A stretch of 64,000 nt of DNA, taken from Phycisphaerae bacterium. Lineage in GTDB: Bacteria > Planctomycetota > Phycisphaerae > Sedimentisphaerales > Anaerobacaceae. The DNA lies in contig JAUXAB010000004.1 of NCBI GenBank assembly GCA_030615025.1, forward strand, positions 1-64,000, given 5' to 3'. A model generated the notes under the pieces. The model saw nothing but the letters and a program-made list of their open reading frames with translations, was not told where the DNA came from and did not search any database. Below are positions 22,217-59,747 of this stretch, one piece after another (positions within the stretch are counted from its first letter, which is position 1; each line of letters begins with the position of its first letter). The translations under genes were made by a program, and so were the position numbers.

Positions 22217-22770
22217 ACAAGACAGAAGACAGAGGACAGAGGGCAGAAGACAGAGGACAGAAAACGCAAAACACAAGACTCAAGACACAAGACACAAGAC
22301 ATTCTTTTGGACCCCCGACGACGAAATTCGAGGGCAGGCAGGATAACAGGATTTTTTTGCCACAGAGGGCGCGGGTAGTTCAATAACATTTAGCCACGAA
22401 TTGGCACGAAATTCTTTTGGACAGGATAACAGGATTAACCTGTTGTTAGAAAAGAAGTTATAATTTTTTCGAAAATTCCGATTTTTGCTTTTAAGTATGT
22501 GCGGATTTGATTGAAAATTGCTCGATGCCGGATGCTTGATACTCGATGGTTGTTGTCATTGCGAGACCACAGGATGCGGCCGTGACTCGTGGCTCTTGTG
22601 TGGATTCCTGCTCCTTCGACTCCGCTCAGGACAGGTTTCGCAGGGGTGACAACCTTGCTCAGGAATGACAATTATTAGTGGATTCCTGCTTGCGCAGGAA
22701 TGACAAGCATTTGCGCCTGTGGTTCGTAGGATTTTTGCGGGCTTTGGCAATATTTTTTTATTTATTTTTA
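22217..22770. other. Repeat-rich non-coding spacer after rpoD
   Basis: It starts with simple purine repeats built on GACAGAGGACAGA and AAGACACAAGACAC (22222-22300). GACAGGATAACAGGATT words follow near 22338 and 22420; the same word occurs reversed near 5940. Two GGATTCC...GGAATGACA repeats lie at 22601-22650 and 22679-22704. No gene is supported here. Confidence 0.65.
22601..22704 (+). repeat. Two dispersed GGATTCCTGC...GGAATGACA repeats
   Basis: A degenerate long unit (22601-22650) with an internal TCGACTCCGCTCAGGACAGG is followed by a clean short unit (22679-22704), in which TTCCTGC and GCAGGAA form a hairpin. Copies occur at 27156, 28463 and 29955, and in minus orientation at 2207. Confidence 0.75.
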
Positions 22771-26990: not shown

Positions 26991-27635
26991 CTCTAACCAC
27001 CGGGGCAGGGGCTGCACAAGTGCACAAGGCATAAGAACATAAGGCACAAGTACATAAGTGCAGATCGAATATCGAAATCCGAAACAAATCCGAATTTTCA
27101 AAATTCAAAATTCAAAACGAGATTCTTCGCTTCGCTCAGAATGATAGTGATGCGATGGATTCCTGTTTGCGCAGGAATGACAGTGAAATGATAAATCCCT
27201 CGGCAAGCTCGGGATGACAAGGGCTTGGCGTTCGCGACTGGTGAAGTGTATCTCGTGAAGCGTGAAGCGTATGTCGTATAAACCCGAAATTCGAAGCACG
27301 AAATCCGAAATGGCGTGAGATAATCCGTTTGAGGTCTGCCACAGAACTTTATAGGACGGTTTTTTCGAGCAATCTGGGCCGGCAAAATGGGCGCTCCGGC
27401 CTGTCCCGAGTCGTACGGCTGAAGGTCGGCTAACGGCCAAATTAATACTGATAATGCAGTTTTCGCGGTATTTTTGTTAGAGGCGTTAGGTAAATATATT
27501 TTTTTGTGAAGAATATATCTGAGTATTTTATTCATAGAATATTAAAGTAACGTAAGAAAATAGTCCGAATAAAGTCTTATAACGTGACGTTCGTAGTTTT
27601 ATAAGTTTTTATAGTTTTGATTAGGAGAGTAAAAA
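26991..27635. other. Repeat-rich spacer
   Basis: 645 nt holding low-complexity ACATAAGGCACAAG words (27015-27060), an AGATTCTTCGCT...CTCAGAATGATA repeat (27119-27146), a GGATTCC...GGAATGACA repeat (27156-27182) and CGAAATCCGAAAT words (27060-27320). Frames through these are repeat-derived, not genes. Confidence 0.65.
27119..27182 (+). repeat. Two adjacent dispersed repeats
   Basis: GAGATTCTTCGCTTCGCTCAGAATGATA (27119-27146, shared with 2396-2436 in degenerate form) is followed 9 nt later by the TGGATTCCTG...GGAATGACA hairpin (27156-27182). The same two classes also lie close together in front of ffh. Confidence 0.7.
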
Positions 27636-28512: not shown

Positions 28513-28639
28513 TTAGGGTCATGGCAGTTGTTCATTGTGCAAAAACTTTTAATAATGGGTAAGAAATTTTATTTTTTGCTTGAAGTGTGGTAGATAAATT
28601 GATAGAAACACAACAGATTGCTCTTTGAAAAGGATATAA

Positions 28640-28885
28640 CCTGACTGCAGGTCCGAAAGCTTCGTGCTTTTGGATAATCAAACGGGAACGCGGTTGAAAG
28701 CCGCGACGGTCGCGCCGCTGTGTGCGTCTGCTCCGATTGCCAAATCGGAAATCCGAGAGACATTTTTGAGAGCTGCCAAACGGGAAAGAACCGTTTGGGG
28801 CTCATCCACTGTCCATTACTAAATTAGTGCGGGATGGGAAGGAGTCTCGAGGTAAGGCGCAAGTCAGAAAACCTGCCTGTAGTTA
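28640..28885 (+). promoter_or_regulatory. Cobalamin (B12) riboswitch
   Basis: The core ACGGGAA-CGCGGTTGAAAGCCGCG (28682-28705) followed by ACGGTCGCGCCGCTGTG matches the conserved receptor region of cobalamin riboswitches. The B12 box AGTCAGAAAACCTGCC lies at 28862-28877. Length and order of elements fit the class. It senses adenosyl- or other cobalamins and normally switches off transcription or translation of the downstream genes. A strong terminator at 28999-29034 follows, so control by attenuation is likely. The genes downstream encode surface proteins. Confidence 0.9.
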
Positions 28886-28998
28886 GCTGCACATTGTTAG
28901 TGTTCTCGCGAGCTGGAACACAAGTGTTTCTCTGCGCTGGGTAAACTTGCTGTTAAGTATATTGCAGGCCGGCTGAGAGTTTGGTTTATTGGTAATCG

Positions 28999-29034
28999 AA
29001 CCGCTGTTCCTCTCGTGGGAACGGCGGTTTTTTT
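28999..29034 (+). terminator. Intrinsic terminator downstream of the B12 riboswitch
   Basis: Stem CCGCTGTTCC (29001-29010) / GGAACGGCGG (29018-29027), extended by AA/TT, followed by a run of seven T (29028-29034). It is placed 115 nt after the B12 box and 139 nt before the first gene, as expected for an attenuator expression platform. Confidence 0.85.
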
Positions 29035-29172
29035 ATTGGCTTTTCGAGTGCCCTCGCGATAAGGGCAAAGAACCGCAGAAAGGAGGTAAATTTAGCGTAT
29101 AGCGTTTAGCTTGAAGAGAGAAGTAGTTTTGAAGAGCAAATTGTGATTTTTTGAGATAGAGGAGATAGAATC

Positions 29173-29949
29173 ATGGCTTCGAGGAGATTAGTGAGTTTAA
29201 TTCTTGTGTTAGTGATAAGCGGCGTATCAACTGCGACGATAGCTACTTTTGATGATTTGAGCCTGGCGCCTGAATCCTACTGGAACGGCTCAGACGGCTC
29301 AGGCGGCTTTAGCAGCGGCAGTGCATACTTTAACAATAACTATAATGCTACGTACATGTCGTGGGATGGATTTGCATATTCGAATATTACCGATACGACT
29401 TCATCAGGATGGACAGCACAGTATAACGCCATTACCGGCGGCGGGCAGAGCGGTTCCGCAAATTACGGTATCAGCTACGTTGGGTGGGCTGAGCTACCTA
29501 CTATCACACTGAATACAGCCGGCATTGTTGACGGTTTGTACGTTACAAACAACAACTATGCATACTATTCGATGCTTAATGGGGATGCGTACGCCAAAAA
29601 GTTCGGCGGTGATAACGGGGACGAGGCGGACTGGTTCCTGCTTACTATTATGGGCAAAGATGTAGACGGTGCGGCAACTGGGAGCGTTGATTTCTACTTA
29701 GCTGATTACCGGTTCGAAGACAACAGTCAGGATTACATCGTTAACGTGTGGCAGTACGTTGATTTGACATCCTTAGGAATGGTTAAGAGCTTGGAGTTTA
29801 ACCTCAACTCCAGTGATGTCGGAGCTTTTGGGATGAACACGCCGGCGTATTTTGCGATGGATAGCGTCGTGCCCGAGCCGGGTACGCTGGTGTTGCTGGC
29901 GCTTGGTGGTGTGTTACTTAGAAGGAAGCCCCGAAATAGATTGGGGTGA
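29173..29949 (+). CDS. PEP-CTERM surface protein, DUF4465-like
   Basis: A 258-residue exported protein with a signal peptide (about 1-21), an aromatic Gly/Ser-rich body and a C-terminal V-P-E-P-G-T-L-V-L-L-A-L ... R-R-K sorting signal, recognised in Planctomycetes by an exosortase/archaeosortase system. Y-W-N-G-S-D-G-S-G-G-F, Y-N-A-I-T-G-G-G-Q-S-G-S-A-N-Y and A-K-K-F-G-G-D-N-G resemble DUF4465 proteins, which I recall from cobalamin-uptake loci of Bacteroidetes. Being first after a B12 riboswitch, it is a candidate extracellular corrinoid-binding protein (inference). GAGG precedes the ATG. Confidence 0.75.
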   Translation: MASRRLVSLILVLVISGVSTATIATFDDLSLAPESYWNGSDGSGGFSSGSAYFNNNYNATYMSWDGFAYSNITDTTSSGWTAQYNAITGGGQSGSANYGISYVGWAELPTITLNTAGIVDGLYVTNNNYAYYSMLNGDAYAKKFGGDNGDEADWFLLTIMGKDVDGAATGSVDFYLADYRFEDNSQDYIVNVWQYVDLTSLGMVKSLEFNLNSSDVGAFGMNTPAYFAMDSVVPEPGTLVLLALGGVLLRRKPRNRLG

Positions 29950-29954
29950 TAAAT

Positions 29955-29982
29955 ATGGATTCCTGCTTTCGCAGGAATGACA
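29955..29982 (+). repeat. Dispersed GGATTCCTGC...GGAATGACA repeat between two surface genes
   Basis: A clean short-form hairpin lies in the 48-nt gap between the PEP-CTERM gene and the next gene. Its GGAATGACAGGG end runs straight into the ribosome binding site AGGGAGGA of the downstream gene. Confidence 0.75.
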
Positions 29983-29997
29983 GGGAGGATTTCGGTT

Positions 29998-31059
29998 GTG
30001 CAGGTAATCGTGCTGGTTATATCAGTGATGGCGTACGGCGGGCCTTATACCGAGCCGGGAGTGAACGGTTATGTCGGCGAGGACGGGCGTCACGCTGACC
30101 CTGCAGACGACGATGCGGTAATAAACCCGATATTCCGATGCTGGGCCACTGATTGGGTGCGTGAACAATATCAGCCAGCGCCTGGAGTGGCTGCTCAATG
30201 GGCTGATCCTAATAAGGCCTTAGGGCCGGCTACGGGAAACAATTTCGATATTGTCAGCCTGGGCGATGTAAACTCAACGCAGATCGGCCAGGGTGTGCAG
30301 CCAGGTCAAATAACTCTGTCATTTAGCGAACCTATTCGCGACTGCAGTGGCTACGATTTTGTTGTTTTCGAAAACGGTTTGGTTTCAATCTATAACACAT
30401 CCGGTGGTTCTGTTGTGGGGCAAATGTTCACTGAATTAGGATACGTGGAAGTGTCATCCAACGGTGAAGATTTTGTCAGATTTGCATCTGTATCGCTTAC
30501 GGGCGGACTTGTGGGCATGTACGGCACTATTGAGATTAGCAACGTCTATAACCTTGCGGGTAAGCACCCCAATGCCGATGGTGTGTGTACGGGTACACCA
30601 TTCGATTTGAGTGAAATCGCTGATGAGCCGAATGTTGTATCAGGCCTTGTGGATATCAACAATATAAACTACGTTCGGATAGTTGATATTCCCGGCAGTG
30701 GGGATTTTGAGGACGAGGCAGTAAAGCACATCGATCCGAATATGTGGCCTGATTGGGACTACTATGCAAATAATCATCCGATTTACGATGCGTGGGTTAC
30801 GTTTGATTCGGGCGGTGTGGATTTGGAGGCGGTCGGCGTTCTCGAAGAACAAGAGTATTCGGCTGATATCAACCTGGACGGCGTGGTCGATATGTTTGAT
30901 TTTGCGCTGTTTGCGTCGGCGTGGGGGAGCTGTTTCGGGGATGTGTACTGGATAGGAAGATGTGACCTGGCGGAGCCAAGAGATTACGTTGTCAATGTTT
31001 TAGATTTGGCTGTGTTTGCCGGTCAATGGCTGAAAGTGGAAAGTTGGTGGAGTAAGTAA
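29998..31059 (+). CDS. Secreted protein with a dockerin-like C-terminus
   Basis: A 353-residue secreted protein. Start GTG 29998 is chosen because AGGGAGGA lies 8 nt upstream; ATG 29977 would begin inside the repeat. The N-terminal helix is a short signal peptide. The body contains D-I-V-S-L-G-D-V, I-T-L-S-F and Y-D-F-V-V-F-E-N-G, then N-V-Y-N-L-A-G-K-H, G-T-P-F-D-L and N-Y-V-R-I-V-D-I-P-G, a family common in planctomycete surface proteins. The end (A-D-I-N-L-D-G-V-V-D-M-F-D-F ... V-L-D-L-A-V-F-A-G-Q-W-L) is a dockerin-type calcium-loop repeat pair. It probably shares the B12-controlled transcript. Confidence 0.75.
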   Translation: MQVIVLVISVMAYGGPYTEPGVNGYVGEDGRHADPADDDAVINPIFRCWATDWVREQYQPAPGVAAQWADPNKALGPATGNNFDIVSLGDVNSTQIGQGVQPGQITLSFSEPIRDCSGYDFVVFENGLVSIYNTSGGSVVGQMFTELGYVEVSSNGEDFVRFASVSLTGGLVGMYGTIEISNVYNLAGKHPNADGVCTGTPFDLSEIADEPNVVSGLVDINNINYVRIVDIPGSGDFEDEAVKHIDPNMWPDWDYYANNHPIYDAWVTFDSGGVDLEAVGVLEEQEYSADINLDGVVDMFDFALFASAWGSCFGDVYWIGRCDLAEPRDYVVNVLDLAVFAGQWLKVESWWSK

Positions 31060-31060
31060 A

Positions 31061-32515
31061 ATGAGGACAAAAGTTTTTGCCATAAAGTACGTTTTGCCGG
31101 TTGTCGCCGTATTTGTTTGTGTTGGGCTATTCTATTGGCGATTTGTGGAGCGCAGTGAGAAAAAAGAGCCAGCTCGCGGGGTAGACTTCACCGCACAATA
31201 TTTAGAGAAGTTAGCCGGCAGGGCCGCACCCGAGCTGCGAAAAATCAGAGGCTGGAAGAACAGCGGGCCGATGACATTAGCTGGGCTGCGCGGTAAATAT
31301 GTCTTGCTTGATTTCTGGGGATACTGGTGTGGGCCCTGCCTGCGGGACATTCCACATTTAATGGCCATTTATGACGCCTTTTCGGACCGTGGATTGATGG
31401 TCATTGGTATTCATGATGATTCTTTGGAATCCATCGATGAACTGGATGAGAAACTGGCGACGGCACGGGAGAAGATTTGGATGGGGCGTGATTTGAATTT
31501 TCCCATTGCTCTGGATGGCGGTGGTGAGACAAAAATCCACGGAACTGATCGAACTGCGCGAGGTGCGACAACAGCAGCTTATGGAATTACGTCATTTCCA
31601 ACCACTGTATTAATTGGTCGTGATGGCGAGGTGATAGAAGAGTTTCACGCCCCAAGCTTAGACGAAAAGATTGCCAAGCTGGAAAAACTGCTCGGTGTTG
31701 AAGCAAAGAAACCGGAATGGAGATTACGATTCGACAAAGTCTATCGATTGGACGGAGGAGAAGTTCTCCGGCATATTGTTGAGCCTTACATACCGGAACG
31801 GGGTGACTTTTTCTATTACCAGTTTAACCGGTGGGGTTGGTTTTTGGGATCAATGAAGTACATGCCCCGCATCCCGGAAAGTGCCGTGTTGACCTGGGAC
31901 GATAAGAAAAATCAGGTAAAAGGCGGAATGCGTGCCGGGCGTAAAGACCTGCGTGCTCTTCTCTGGGAATTGGGTTTCTATGAAAGGGAGTTTGAGGGTG
32001 ATCCCATATTATTTGGACAACTTGTACCCGGAGACTGGATCAAACGTGATGGTGCAACGCGTGAGGAGCTTTTGGGGGCATTTGAAAAAATCCTGAACGA
32101 CAAGTTGAATTTGAGAATTAGTTTCGTTCCAAATGAAGTGGAACGGGATGTATTCATTTGCAGTGGAACGTTCGATGTTCATCCATTAGGAGGCGAATAC
32201 GGCAATAACCAAATTCATTTGTTTGTTGAAAAGCCTGATCCTGCGGACAATATCCGGGGTGGAGGTGGAAGCGGAGATCTTGACAACTTCCTGGATTATG
32301 TAGGACGGCTGGGAAAAAAACGGATCATAAATGCTGATAAAACGGTTGTGGAAAACCTTACCTGGCGTCAACACAGTTCAACCAGAGGTGGGCGGTTGAA
32401 AAAGGATCCTGCTCTTTTCGAAATGCTTCTGAAAAACGTCGGCAGGCAAACATCTTTGCGATTTAACAAGGAACGCCATAAGGAGAGAATATGGGTTGTA
32501 GAAAGCGCAGAGTAG
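31061..32515 (+). CDS. Membrane-anchored TlpA-like thioredoxin with an extra C-terminal domain
   Basis: A 484-residue protein starting 2 nt after the previous stop. One N-terminal membrane helix (about 8-27) anchors a thioredoxin domain with W-C-G-P-C at 89-93 and the cis-Pro motif S-F-P-T-T. The domain ends near residue 215; the remaining 270 residues do not resemble thioredoxin. They end with a segment (L-L-K-N-V-G-R-Q-T-S-L-R-F ... R-I-W-V-V-E-S) that recalls DUF3738-type C-termini. It would act as an extracytoplasmic disulfide reductase or sensor. It is probably part of the B12-controlled operon. Confidence 0.75.
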   Translation: MRTKVFAIKYVLPVVAVFVCVGLFYWRFVERSEKKEPARGVDFTAQYLEKLAGRAAPELRKIRGWKNSGPMTLAGLRGKYVLLDFWGYWCGPCLRDIPHLMAIYDAFSDRGLMVIGIHDDSLESIDELDEKLATAREKIWMGRDLNFPIALDGGGETKIHGTDRTARGATTAAYGITSFPTTVLIGRDGEVIEEFHAPSLDEKIAKLEKLLGVEAKKPEWRLRFDKVYRLDGGEVLRHIVEPYIPERGDFFYYQFNRWGWFLGSMKYMPRIPESAVLTWDDKKNQVKGGMRAGRKDLRALLWELGFYEREFEGDPILFGQLVPGDWIKRDGATREELLGAFEKILNDKLNLRISFVPNEVERDVFICSGTFDVHPLGGEYGNNQIHLFVEKPDPADNIRGGGGSGDLDNFLDYVGRLGKKRIINADKTVVENLTWRQHSSTRGGRLKKDPALFEMLLKNVGRQTSLRFNKERHKERIWVVESAE

Positions 32516-32570
32516 GTTTGCAGCACAGCAATGGCTCGGAGTTAAACCATGGCGGGGCAAGTGAATGGAA

Positions 32571-32597
32571 AGTCGTCGTACCGGCGACTGCTAAACA
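32571..32597. repeat. GC-rich hairpin with GCTAAACA flank
   Basis: AGTCGTCGTACCGGCGACT is followed by GCTAAACA; this is the inverted version of the TGTTTAGC flank. The same unit, with a better stem, is at 55172-55199. It lies just upstream of the pilin-like gene. Confidence 0.65.
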
Positions 32598-32614
32598 ATT
32601 TTGAATTTATTCTT

Positions 32615-33439
32615 ATGTTTGGCAAAAAACGAAAAGCGTTTAGTCTGATTGAGCTGCTGGTAGTGATGTCAGTGATTTCGCTGCTTATGGCAATATTGGT
32701 GCCGGTGTTAGCTACGGTGAGGTCGCAGGCGTGCAGTGCGATCTGCCAATCTAATCTTCGCCAGCTTTTCTTAGCTAACACTGGGTACACGATTGAAAAT
32801 GACGGCTATTATGTGCCGGCGGCACCTGATATTACTTCGGAAAAGGGAGGCAAATACCGGTGGCACGGTGTTCGGGACAGTGCCGATGAGCCGTTCGAGG
32901 CGCTGAGAGGTCCTCTGGCGGCATATCTGGTCGACGGCAAGGTCAAGGAATGTCCGGAGGGGGTTGATTTTGCCAAGGGCGGCTCGTGGAATGAAAACTT
33001 TGAGCAGGGCTGCGGCGGATACGGATATAACCATATATACCTTGGCTCGCGAAACTGGCAGGACCGACAATTCGAGACAATCGAACAAATGGAACGTGCG
33101 GGGTGGGAGACGACAAGGACTACAGAAGTTGGCAGGCCAAGCGAGACTTTGATGTTCGCTGATACGGCGATGTGTGTTGAGAAGCCGGATTTGATAGAGT
33201 ATTCGTTTGCGGAGCCGCCTTTTTATGTCTATAAGGGCAAGCCAATGACGAGCTTTTACCTCTCTTCGTCCATACATTTTCGGCACCGGGACTGGGCCAA
33301 GGTTGGATGGGCTGACGGCCACAGCGATTCGCGGGGGATGGCGGGCTTCGGTGACATGAACGTTTATGATGTTGATTCTGCGGAGATGAAATTAGGCTGG
33401 TTCGAGCCGATAGATAACACGCCGTTTGATTTGGAATGA
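32615..33439 (+). CDS. Pilin-like protein (type IV/type II pseudopilin N-terminus)
   Basis: A 274-residue protein from ATG 32615. The N-terminus is a prepilin leader K-K-R-K-A followed by F-S-L-I-E-L-L-V-V-M-S-V-I-S-L-L, the processing and helix motif of type IV pilins, with Ala rather than Gly before the cleavage site. The body contains N-L-R-Q-L-F-L-A-N-x-G-Y near residue 55 and ends with an H-x-D-G-like W-A-D-G-H-S-D-S, as in planctomycete DUF1559 proteins. I reject the longer start at 32549 because it would begin upstream of the hairpin repeat. It may belong to the B12-controlled group, though a 99-nt gap precedes it. Confidence 0.8.
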   Translation: MFGKKRKAFSLIELLVVMSVISLLMAILVPVLATVRSQACSAICQSNLRQLFLANTGYTIENDGYYVPAAPDITSEKGGKYRWHGVRDSADEPFEALRGPLAAYLVDGKVKECPEGVDFAKGGSWNENFEQGCGGYGYNHIYLGSRNWQDRQFETIEQMERAGWETTRTTEVGRPSETLMFADTAMCVEKPDLIEYSFAEPPFYVYKGKPMTSFYLSSSIHFRHRDWAKVGWADGHSDSRGMAGFGDMNVYDVDSAEMKLGWFEPIDNTPFDLE

Positions 33440-33608
33440 AATTGGGTTACTTACCGCCGAGTGCGCCATCTCTGTTTTGCCACAAAGGCACCAAGACACT
33501 AAGATTGTAATATATTTATTTTTTAACTTCGCGACTTCGTGTCCTTGCGGCTAAAATTCTTTGTGTTCTCGGTGGTTAGTTTCCATATCTCTTTGTATAA
33601 TTGGCGGC
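33440..33608 (+). promoter_or_regulatory. Spacer with a -10 like element for comF
   Basis: The gap contains low-complexity sequence (CCACAAAGGCACCAAGACACTAAGATT, here as spaced words) and TATAAT at 33596-33601, directly before the GTG chosen for comF. A matching -35 is not clear. Confidence 0.3.
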
Positions 33609-34367
33609 GTGGAGAAGGTAAAGCGAAAACGAATTGTTTCTTTTGGTTTGCAGAGTTTTAATCAGCTTCTCTGGCCTGCGGTCTGCGCCAGCTGCGGCGA
33701 AAGCGTTTGTGAGACTGACAAAACTTTGTGCAAAGATTGCTGGGGCGAGCTTCAGGCCTGTGCGGGCGGTGATTACTGTCCGCGATGTGGGCGAGATGCC
33801 AGCAGATACGGCCTGGTTGGCGGCGCCTGTCCCGATTGTCAGGGTAGACAAATTCATTTCGACGAAATAGCTCGAAGCGGAGTTTATGAAGATGCTTTAA
33901 GTAAAATGATATTGTCCTTTAAGAAAGGCCGCACAGAATTGGATTCGATGCTGGGCTTTTTGGCTAATTCTGCGCTTGAGGGCAGCAGCTTTGTGAACGA
34001 AATAGAATTTTTTGTCCCCGTCCCGCTGCACTGGTCGAGGCGATTGGTTCGCGGCTACAATCAATCTTTAGTTTTAGCAAAGAAATTGAAGCACCCGACG
34101 GCGAAAATCAATACCGGGTTGGTTCGGATACGGTACACCAAGACACAACCAGGAGGAATGGCAAACGTAGTTGCCCGTACTAAAAATGTTGCCGGTGCCT
34201 TTGCGGTGCGTTATGGGCACAAATTTACCGGCAAAAAGATTTGTCTCGTCGATGATATTAAAACAACCGGTGCGACGTTAAACGAGTGTGCGAAGACATT
34301 GAAGGAGGCTGGTGCTTCAAAAGTCTTTGCATTGGTTTTAGCCGTTGCCGGGCAAAAGACCAGCTAA
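33609..34367 (+). CDS. comF: ComF family phosphoribosyltransferase-like protein
   Basis: About 252 residues from GTG 33609. An N-terminal zinc-finger region with C-A-S-C-G ... C-K-D-C-W ... C-P-R-C-G ... C-P-D-C is followed by a type I phosphoribosyltransferase fold with V-P-L-H-W-S-R-R-L-V-R-G-Y-N-Q and the PRPP-loop I-C-L-V-D-D-I-K-T-T-G-A-T. ComF is needed for DNA uptake in transformable bacteria, probably helping ssDNA cross the membrane. The stop is adjacent to the nagA start. Confidence 0.88.
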   Translation: MEKVKRKRIVSFGLQSFNQLLWPAVCASCGESVCETDKTLCKDCWGELQACAGGDYCPRCGRDASRYGLVGGACPDCQGRQIHFDEIARSGVYEDALSKMILSFKKGRTELDSMLGFLANSALEGSSFVNEIEFFVPVPLHWSRRLVRGYNQSLVLAKKLKHPTAKINTGLVRIRYTKTQPGGMANVVARTKNVAGAFAVRYGHKFTGKKICLVDDIKTTGATLNECAKTLKEAGASKVFALVLAVAGQKTS

Positions 34368-58310: not shown

Positions 58311-59747
58311 CTATTCTATCTGGCGTTTTGCGCATTCTACTATGCGGTCAACTTCCTGCGCCAGGGCTTCATCCATCGGTTCCGGCTTGTGTGTGGCCAG
58401 GATGCGATTTACCTCGTCTAAAGCGCGGTCGGCCATTGAGCTGCGTCCGTCGCTTTGCCAGAGTTCCCAGCTCTGCCTTGTCCAGGCTGGCCCAGGGAGC
58501 CAAAGCTCGCGGCGGAAGTGTTTGACGGTATGCTCCTCAGCCAGGTAATTACCGCCTGGCCCAACCATGTCCACCACCTTCGTGGCGAGAGTATCAGCGT
58601 CGACTTCAAAGCCGCGCACAATTCGTTTGACATAGTTCACCAGTTCGTTGTCGATATACAGCCAGGTAAGGCTGGCAGCGTGGTCTGTTCCACAGATGCC
58701 GCAATGTCCGAACGTATCCGCCCCGGCCAGTGCACCCAAAACCATTGTGCCGGCTTTCTCGATGCCCGCCTGGGCGTCTGGGACCTTCGCATCAGTGAGG
58801 CCTACATTGATGTACACCGGAAAGCCATAGGAGCGTGCTATCTGCACCATGGCTACAGCCATTAGCGCTTGCTCGGGAGAGCCAAATGAGCAGATGCTCG
58901 TACGCGGGTCCATTATATGCGGAATCCCACCATAAGTTACCGGCGTACCGGGCGACAACAATTGGGTGACAACAACGCCCGCAAGTATTTCCGCATTTTC
59001 CTGAGCTAACGTGCCTGCGAGGGTCGCCGGAGCAGTTGCAGATGTCATTGCCATCGGGCCAATGCTGACAGGCTGGCCTGCCCGTACAAACTCCATTAAA
59101 ATGTCCAGCCCGTCTTTGGGCAATTGCAATGGACTTATAGGTTCCAGAAACGCTTCCACCATCGGATGAGCACGCAGGGCGGCATCACCTCCGGCGATGG
59201 TGCGGTAAATCTGCAAAACATAGCGGGCCGTTTGGCCATTGCAAACCCAACAGCGTGTCGGCTTGCTTGTTCCCTTTAGCAGTTCGCCGGTCAGGAACAC
59301 GTCCCGATAAGTTGCAGGTATCTCTTCTGGTTGAGCCATTGAGCCTACTATGTTGATATTGGCCAGAGCATCACCGAGGCGAATCGCATCGCGTGCGTCC
59401 TGTATTGTGGCTGGACGAAGCCGGCTGGTCTGGGAATCTATCCAGCCGAACTGGCCGGGGCTGGACATCAACACAAAATCACCATAGCCAAAACGTGCCG
59501 TGCGCTCCGCATTCCGGCCATGCAGAATATACCGCTTACCGGCGCGGGCCACACTATCCATAACCAGCTGCTCAGACAGACGTGCTATCTTACTATCCTG
59601 GTCCACCTTGGCACCGCCTTCTTCCAGCAGTTTCAGCACCTTATCGTGGTGCACCATAATGCCCGTATCCCGGAGAATGAGAATGCTGCCGTCTCGGATA
59701 GATTGTATTTCCCGCTCAGTCAAAACTTGTATGTGGATGTTTGCCAT
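58311..59747 (-). CDS. MttB family (trimethylamine-type) methyltransferase, no pyrrolysine
   Basis: A 478-residue corrinoid-dependent methyltransferase of the trimethylamine methyltransferase superfamily. The frame is uninterrupted and has no in-frame UAG, so this is a non-pyrrolysine member, as in the glycine-betaine or other quaternary-amine demethylases. Visible: G-S-M-A-Q-P-E-E-I near 116, T-P-V-T-Y-G-G-I-P-H near 268 and V-G-P-G-G-N-Y-L-A-E-E-H-T near 395. The usual partners (a corrinoid protein, a second methyltransferase) are not adjacent. It lies between two Tat oxidoreductase genes. Confidence 0.88.
   Translation of the reverse strand: MANIHIQVLTEREIQSIRDGSILILRDTGIMVHHDKVLKLLEEGGAKVDQDSKIARLSEQLVMDSVARAGKRYILHGRNAERTARFGYGDFVLMSSPGQFGWIDSQTSRLRPATIQDARDAIRLGDALANINIVGSMAQPEEIPATYRDVFLTGELLKGTSKPTRCWVCNGQTARYVLQIYRTIAGGDAALRAHPMVEAFLEPISPLQLPKDGLDILMEFVRAGQPVSIGPMAMTSATAPATLAGTLAQENAEILAGVVVTQLLSPGTPVTYGGIPHIMDPRTSICSFGSPEQALMAVAMVQIARSYGFPVYINVGLTDAKVPDAQAGIEKAGTMVLGALAGADTFGHCGICGTDHAASLTWLYIDNELVNYVKRIVRGFEVDADTLATKVVDMVGPGGNYLAEEHTVKHFRRELWLPGPAWTRQSWELWQSDGRSSMADRALDEVNRILATHKPEPMDEALAQEVDRIVECAKRQIE

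Follow-up and report, generated by a model that had tools for sequence, protein, structure and literature searches.

What does a cobalamin riboswitch control when no recognised vitamin B12 transporter or biosynthesis gene follows it? The question is raised by a locus in a stretch of 64,000 nucleotides from a Phycisphaerae bacterium (assembly GCA_030615025.1, contig JAUXAB010000004.1, positions 1 to 64,000; hereafter the window), where one strand carries a cobalamin riboswitch and a terminator, followed by genes for a DUF4465 protein, a BtuH-type protein and a prepilin. Sequence comparison and structural modelling make it highly likely that the locus is a vitamin B12 scavenging operon, in which the riboswitch controls surface capture proteins. 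An earlier, sequence-only reading of this DNA had reported the absence of any known B12 transporter or biosynthesis gene; that is true for the locus, but the first two genes belong to B12-binding families. B12 binders and riboswitches of these kinds are already known, and the new elements are the pilin partner and the anchoring of the binders. The genes are called J (protein P0001), W (P0002; the name also denotes its main domain) and PIL (P0004). The locus has the following features, all on the forward strand:

28632-28894, +, cobalamin riboswitch aptamer RF00174 (cmscan, 60.0 bits, E 2.3e-12)
28998-29030, +, intrinsic terminator or attenuator, a 14-pair stem with a T-run
29173-29949, +, gene J, secreted DUF4465 (BtuJ-type) protein with a PEP-CTERM anchor (PF14717, 184 bits)
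29998-31059, +, gene W, secreted protein with a predicted BtuH-type domain and a C-terminal dockerin-like repeat (assigned by profile, fold and context)
30031-30843, +, part of gene W coding for the predicted BtuH-type domain
about 30847-31035, +, dockerin-like repeat of gene W
31061-32515, +, TlpA-like thiol-disulfide protein, between W and the pilin (AhpC-TSA, E 3.7e-13)
32549-33439, +, gene PIL, type IV pilin-like protein of the putative B12 operon (N_methyl, 30.6 bits)

Riboswitch and candidate B12-binding proteins

The B12 riboswitch and the strong attenuator proposed in the sequence-only reading are both borne out. The covariance score of the aptamer compares with a gathering score of 31.5 bits, and the match covers the whole model (1-189). 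It is the single cobalamin riboswitch detected by cmscan in the window and also in the genome, whose 3.9 Mb are 79% complete; all absences from the genome reported here rest on searches of this assembly. The attenuator has a folding energy of -24.9 kcal/mol (z -5.7), and of 19 related loci, 11 have a comparable terminator between the riboswitch and the first gene, where mononucleotide shuffles predict 0.2. Because a similar terminator recurs in related leaders, the riboswitch likely acts through transcription attenuation. Judging from the known behaviour of riboswitches, transcription would stop near 29030 when corrinoid is plentiful, while scarcity would let the polymerase bypass the terminator and the operon be made.

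DUF4465, a name found in just four papers, is an experimentally established B12-binding family (PMC13398666, PMC12751083). Binding has been measured for eight divergent members, including Pan of Mucisphaera calidilacus, itself one of the Phycisphaerae (PMC13398666). A Pfam search confirms the domain suggested earlier for gene J: the PF14717 score far exceeds its cut-off of 25 bits, and the match extends over residues 60-232 of P0001 and positions 2-176 of the 176 in the profile; PEP-CTERM is matched as well. The best match among solved structures is the complex of D5EK51 with B12 (9hmu, E 1.4e-28). The HI-loop motif NTPAY, named for DUF4465 B12 binders (PMC13398666), is found in P0001 as MNTPAYF (residues 221-227), and 59 of 64 aligned homologues retain its B12-contacting tyrosine. 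The YAYY sequence at residues 129-132 lies in the likely counterpart of the DE-loop helix that holds a further B12-contact tyrosine, its placement being approximate.

Gene W had been labelled dockerin-like, which holds for its C-terminus, where a dockerin match stays below the cut-off (15.5 bits, E 0.02), but misses the main domain. A Pfam search of P0002 yields no domain except this weak dockerin. Alignment of 27 class homologues places the conserved part in the first 290 residues, where the G, D, EN, VS and F-L positions are invariant; the C-termini, in contrast, are either dockerin-like or of the PEP-CTERM type, the latter in 11 of the 27. Given the weak dockerin match, the PEP-CTERM relatives and the large conserved domain, we reject the interpretation of gene W as a dockerin protein only. 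Inspection of P0002 by eye reveals no lipobox.

A profile of 94 W domains, compared with 177,635 solved sequences at E<=10, returns a single match, 8blw_B (E 0.0019), the C-terminal BtuH domain of Bacteroides BtuG1. Homology of this domain to BtuH2, a B12-binding protein, has been reported (PMC10404256). An intermediate sequence points the same way: in genome G065, the protein that stands in W's place, between DUF4465 and the pilin behind a riboswitch, matches the W profile and also matches BtuG1 (1.4e-14) and BtuH2 (2.2e-10). The AlphaFold2 (AF2) model of the window's W domain (pLDDT 95.6) is most similar in fold to BtuH2 (7biz, Z 12.5, root-mean-square deviation 3.1 over 162 aligned residues) and BtuG1 (8blw, Z 11.8); the matches below them form a plateau at Z 9.2 and lower, with many CBM32/F5-8C-like folds. 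A Foldseek search with the same model gives 8blw as the sole match below 1e-3 (E 1.6e-5). In BtuH2, Asn399 contacts the phosphate of the B12 nucleotide loop and Gln333 contacts the ribose (PMC8941943). The residue aligned to Asn399, Asn115 of an FEN motif, is invariant in all 94 W domains. By profile, intermediate sequence, modelled fold and genomic context, we place the W domain with the B12-binding BtuH proteins, and the exported J and W proteins very probably bind corrinoids.

The W family has no Pfam entry and ranges over Planctomycetota, Verrucomicrobiota, Cyanobacteria, Desulfobacterota and Betaproteobacteria; a W-domain protein (L194, 3-3474) also occurs on a contig of 3.5 kb that bears the name Methanosarcina spelaei and may be contamination. 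Neither Pfam nor NCBIfam offers a name for W above cut-off. The one related model is that of the Leptospira lipoprotein LIC_13355 (NF033170), which is matched by 67 of the 94 W domains at E <= 0.01 (best 2.5e-18); in the members examined, the scores stay far below its 120-bit cut-off. LIC_13355 is reported as an adhesin (PMC11891782); from the sequence similarity, it may be a BtuH-type B12-binding protein. A phage origin of W was considered and discarded, as the phage collection contains no match.

The reading frame of gene W is open from an ATG at 29977. Since this ATG lies inside a repeat copy, the GTG at 29998, shortly 3' of AGGGAGG, is the better start, in agreement with the coordinate given earlier. 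The short palindromic repeat, TTCCTGCTTTCGCAGGAATGAC, is present in three copies (22683-22704, 27160-27181 and 29960-29981) where none is expected by chance, and the last copy supplies the probably false ATG ahead of the gene.

A recurrent gene order with a pilin

DUF4465 occurs in 26 of 198 genomes of the class Phycisphaerae, and a cobalamin riboswitch lies beside 24 of these 26 loci, the remaining two being at contig ends. The recurrence downstream of B12 riboswitches that the sequence-only reading had proposed as a check is thus strongly upheld. At nearly all of the class DUF4465 loci W and the pilin follow, arranged as J-W-PIL or W-J-PIL, and in genome G008 the riboswitch, J, W, PIL, BtuF, BtuD and BtuC form one gene string. 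The same association is seen from the side of the riboswitch: among 42 riboswitches from loci lacking a strong DUF4465 match, a W-family gene follows in 24 and a pilin in 33, and in another set of 33 loci, 29 have the pilin beside the riboswitch. Six of the 42 loci have neither W nor pilin and carry genes for class III ribonucleotide reductase/MetE, cobalamin salvage or other functions. Riboswitches at L162 and L163 control cobalamin salvage, with neither W nor pilin. At L148 and L150 (genomes G042 and G049), inspection by eye places the riboswitch before a gene resembling class III ribonucleotide reductase, with MetE farther downstream; both enzymes are B12-independent, and W and pilin are absent there. 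Gene order across the 198 genomes indicates that riboswitch, predicted surface B12 binders and pilin are a conserved unit, sometimes followed by BtuF-BtuD-BtuC.

About 280 nucleotides separate the aptamer from gene J, a distance that suits a riboswitch controlling a short transcript, with J, W and the pilin outside its regulon as chance neighbours. However, the same gene order is found in many families and in other phyla, and since each genome holds a few dozen prepilin genes, we estimate a chance of a few percent that one would fall within 6 kb. Chance adjacency is therefore very improbable.

The TlpA-like gene does not share this conservation. Its homologues are missing from the other fetched riboswitch and W loci, bar one match of 108 amino acids at E 2e-4, and lacking a true homologue in any other fetched locus, it is rejected as a component of the system. 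Surface handling of corrinoids by the exported proteins, as first proposed, is retained for J (DUF4465) and W (BtuH-type) and dropped for TlpA, which we judge from this distribution to be a local insertion outside the conserved system.

In PIL, the sequence-only reading had correctly recognised a pilin-like gene but undervalued it, missing its conserved membership in the regulon. The N_methyl prepilin motif scores 30.6 against 21.2 bits, with the prepilin site KA^FSLIE. Homologues start near an internal ATG at 32615, which is likely the true start. Glutamate +5 of the prepilin site (Glu35) is kept in 92 of 92 aligned pilins and an H-X9-DG motif in 73 of them. The AF2 model (pLDDT 91) features a long helix at its N-terminus; every one of the eight VIA-align rows is a pilin, though weakly matched (best Z 5.3), and Foldseek gives no match below 1e-3. 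Distant paralogues are abundant, with a dozen or more matches in most of 81 class genomes. The close orthologues stand apart from these (E below 1e-36, the next match at 7e-22) and are found in 20 genomes including the window's, and 19 of these 20 orthologues are located at a cobalamin riboswitch. At L213, L227, L232 and L206, from Pirellulales and other Planctomycetota, J or W has a less closely related pilin-like neighbour (E 1e-18 to 1e-24); by sequence, the association with a pilin may reach outside the class. In this and other loci of the taxonomic order, the pilin is followed by a ComF-like phosphoribosyltransferase gene (window 33561-34367, L110 10245-11000, L149 6323-7090), possibly a link to competence-type pili or plain synteny.

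Prepilin paralogues in such numbers are consistent with a pilin that serves as a substrate-matched pseudopilin of type II secretion, exporting the capture proteins and taking no part in B12 import. A lone pseudopilin gene beside exported proteins, lacking other machinery, fits a secretion helper, and the gene is the last of the operon, after the exported proteins. Yet operons outside the Planctomycetota-Verrucomicrobiota-Chlamydiota (PVC) phyla export homologous J and W without a pilin, and the pilin follows differing exported proteins (propellers and other folds) while remaining tied to the B12 riboswitch. We regard such a secretion role as possible, though doubtful. Gene fusions bear on another proposal, in which the pilin forms a static scaffold or fibre on the surface, holding the B12 binders out from the cell and enlarging the capture radius, with import left to an unrecognised porin or receptor. 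Several genomes encode J and W as a fusion, so these parts probably act together, and at L098 W and the pilin share a single reading frame. L098 is one contig of a metagenome-assembled genome, however, where the fusion could be an assembly error, and we know of no pilin-binding motif; a static scaffold appears rather unlikely.

B12 supply and the outer membrane

Of 61 class genomes, 2 have the corrin-ring enzyme CbiC; in this genome it was not found. Because CbiC is so rare, most of the class probably scavenges B12. The sequence-only reading had noted neither this lack nor the scarcity of TonB receptors described below. This genome has four B12-binding-domain matches. An MttB-family corrinoid methyltransferase is encoded in the window (58311-59747, minus strand), with an Rfam match to PYLIS_3 at 58708-58799; the match has CUC in place of the family's UAG codon, so the gene probably belongs to the non-pyrrolysine (betaine-type) branch. 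A FecCD importer is present in all 81 class genomes, and the sole FecCD permease of this genome (contig C2) is flanked by BtuF- and BtuD-like genes.

B12 has a mass of about 1.35 kDa. Ordinary porins have a size limit of about 600 Da (PMC5394234). The TonB Plug domain has matches in 30 of the 81 class genomes and none in this genome, and no TonB receptor is among the operon genes. Since B12 exceeds the porin limit and Plug is found in 30 of 81 genomes, its passage through the outer membrane is unaccounted for in most of the class. PilT-family ATPases occur in 61 of 61 class genomes. Planctomycete pili-like fibres bind dextran, and large molecules reach the periplasm of these bacteria by a route left open in 2017 (PMC5394234).

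Outside the PVC phyla, in Desulfobacterota and Betaproteobacteria, J/W loci include a TonB receptor that adjoins J and W or lies between them, again near B12 riboswitches. Among 80 W loci, 38 have a pilin only, 17 a TonB receptor only, one has both and 24 have neither (Fisher p 2e-5; the loci were fetched by similarity, biased to query-like W, and the test ignores phylogeny). Across phyla, pilin and TonB receptor are almost mutually exclusive beside the W family.

These observations suggest how the operon might work. J, with its PEP-CTERM anchor, and W, with its dockerin-like repeat, would be held at the cell surface and, going by the biochemistry of their families, bind B12 with high affinity. 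Captured B12 would enter the periplasm and be taken up by the genome's sole FecCD-type ATP-binding cassette (ABC) importer, BtuF/C/D-like, on contig C2. The co-regulated pilin could help to capture B12 or carry it across the outer membrane, the step performed elsewhere by BtuB. Several points weigh against this scheme. Direct comparison of the W profile with BtuH gives a modest E-value, and of the BtuH2 contacts Asn399 and Gln333 alone can be aligned to W. The window protein has PAPGV, with valine, where BtuH2 has PAPGQ with Gln333; because this glutamine is not kept, we file W as BtuH-type and not as BtuH. In a genome that is 79% complete, a missing BtuB is no proof, and the proposed role of the pilin derives from association.

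As an extension of the scavenging interpretation, a B12-specific pilus or pseudopilus, using type IV machinery and PilT retraction, would bring B12 or B12-loaded surface proteins into the periplasm in place of BtuB. The frequency of pilins beside the riboswitches, their near exclusion of TonB receptors at W loci, and the Plug and PilT counts all agree with such a pilus, as do the dextran-binding fibres and unexplained uptake of large molecules in planctomycetes (PMC5394234). The association is nevertheless confounded by phylogeny, with the pilin in PVC phyla only; some class genomes do have TonB receptors, and the Plug model might miss a receptor. We also know of no case of small-ligand uptake borne by a pilus. 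Import by a pilus is accordingly a tentative possibility. Its broadest form, in which a B12-dedicated type IV pilin, made only at B12 scarcity, replaces BtuB in Planctomycetota and further PVC members and carries B12 or loaded BtuJ/BtuH-type proteins, is comparably tentative. We found no literature linking planctomycetes, cobalamin riboswitches and TonB, or pseudopilins with cobalamin riboswitches in such a sense.

Under the scavenging interpretation, an uncurated protein family gains a likely function, and a little-studied phylum gains an operon signature of B12 scavenging. B12 would also be a defined ligand of about 1.35 kDa for probing how large nutrients pass through the planctomycete outer membrane. 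If vitamin uptake is pilus-driven, the pilin, which often occupies the place of the outer-membrane B12 importer of other bacteria, may show the route of B12 across that membrane.

Comparison with known systems

B12 capture by BtuJ and BtuH is understood from gut Bacteroides, in which the captured vitamin passes to a TonB receptor (PMC12751083, PMC8941943, PMC10404256). Here both kinds of Bacteroides binder appear, differently anchored and joined by a riboswitch to a pilin, in bacteria mostly without corrin synthesis and TonB receptors. J shares its Pfam family, the NTPAY motif of the HI-loop and secretion with BtuJ1 and BtuJ2 of B. thetaiotaomicron, D5EK51 of Coraliomargarita and Pan of Mucisphaera (PMC12751083, PMC13398666), and riboswitch control with the BtuJ of B. 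thetaiotaomicron. It differs in having a PEP-CTERM anchor where the latter has a lipid anchor, and unlike in BtuJ systems, no BtuB, BtuG or ABC genes adjoin it. W resembles BtuH2 (BT_1956, 7biz) and the H domain of BtuG1 (8blw) in fold, detectable homology, the nucleotide-loop asparagine and B12 riboswitch control (PMC8941943, PMC10404256). In comparison with BtuH2, it has a dockerin-like or PEP-CTERM anchor instead of a surface lipoprotein signal, lacks Ig-like domains and has Gln333 replaced.

The pili-like fibres and crateriform structures of planctomycetes (PMC5394234) are comparable in that a role in bringing ligands across the outer membrane has been proposed for pilus-type surface fibres. 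Those fibres were observed by microscopy with dextran; that work identified no genes for them and drew no connection to B12. With TonB import through BtuB-BtuG (PMC10404256) the locus has in common a riboswitch-controlled surface capture that would feed a BtuCDF-type importer. A further likeness is that propeller proteins stand beside W in some class loci. Propeller-like secreted proteins with dockerin or PEP-CTERM adjoin W or the pilin behind B12 riboswitches at L116 (2473-3645), L118 (9498-10970), L133 (7338-8846, PQQ/BamB-type) and L157 (8237-9757), and by analogy they are possible counterparts of BtuG. The difference is found at the outer membrane: the BtuB-BtuG system imports through a TonB receptor, while here the operon and the searched genome show no such receptor, and the operon has a type IV pilin-like protein instead.

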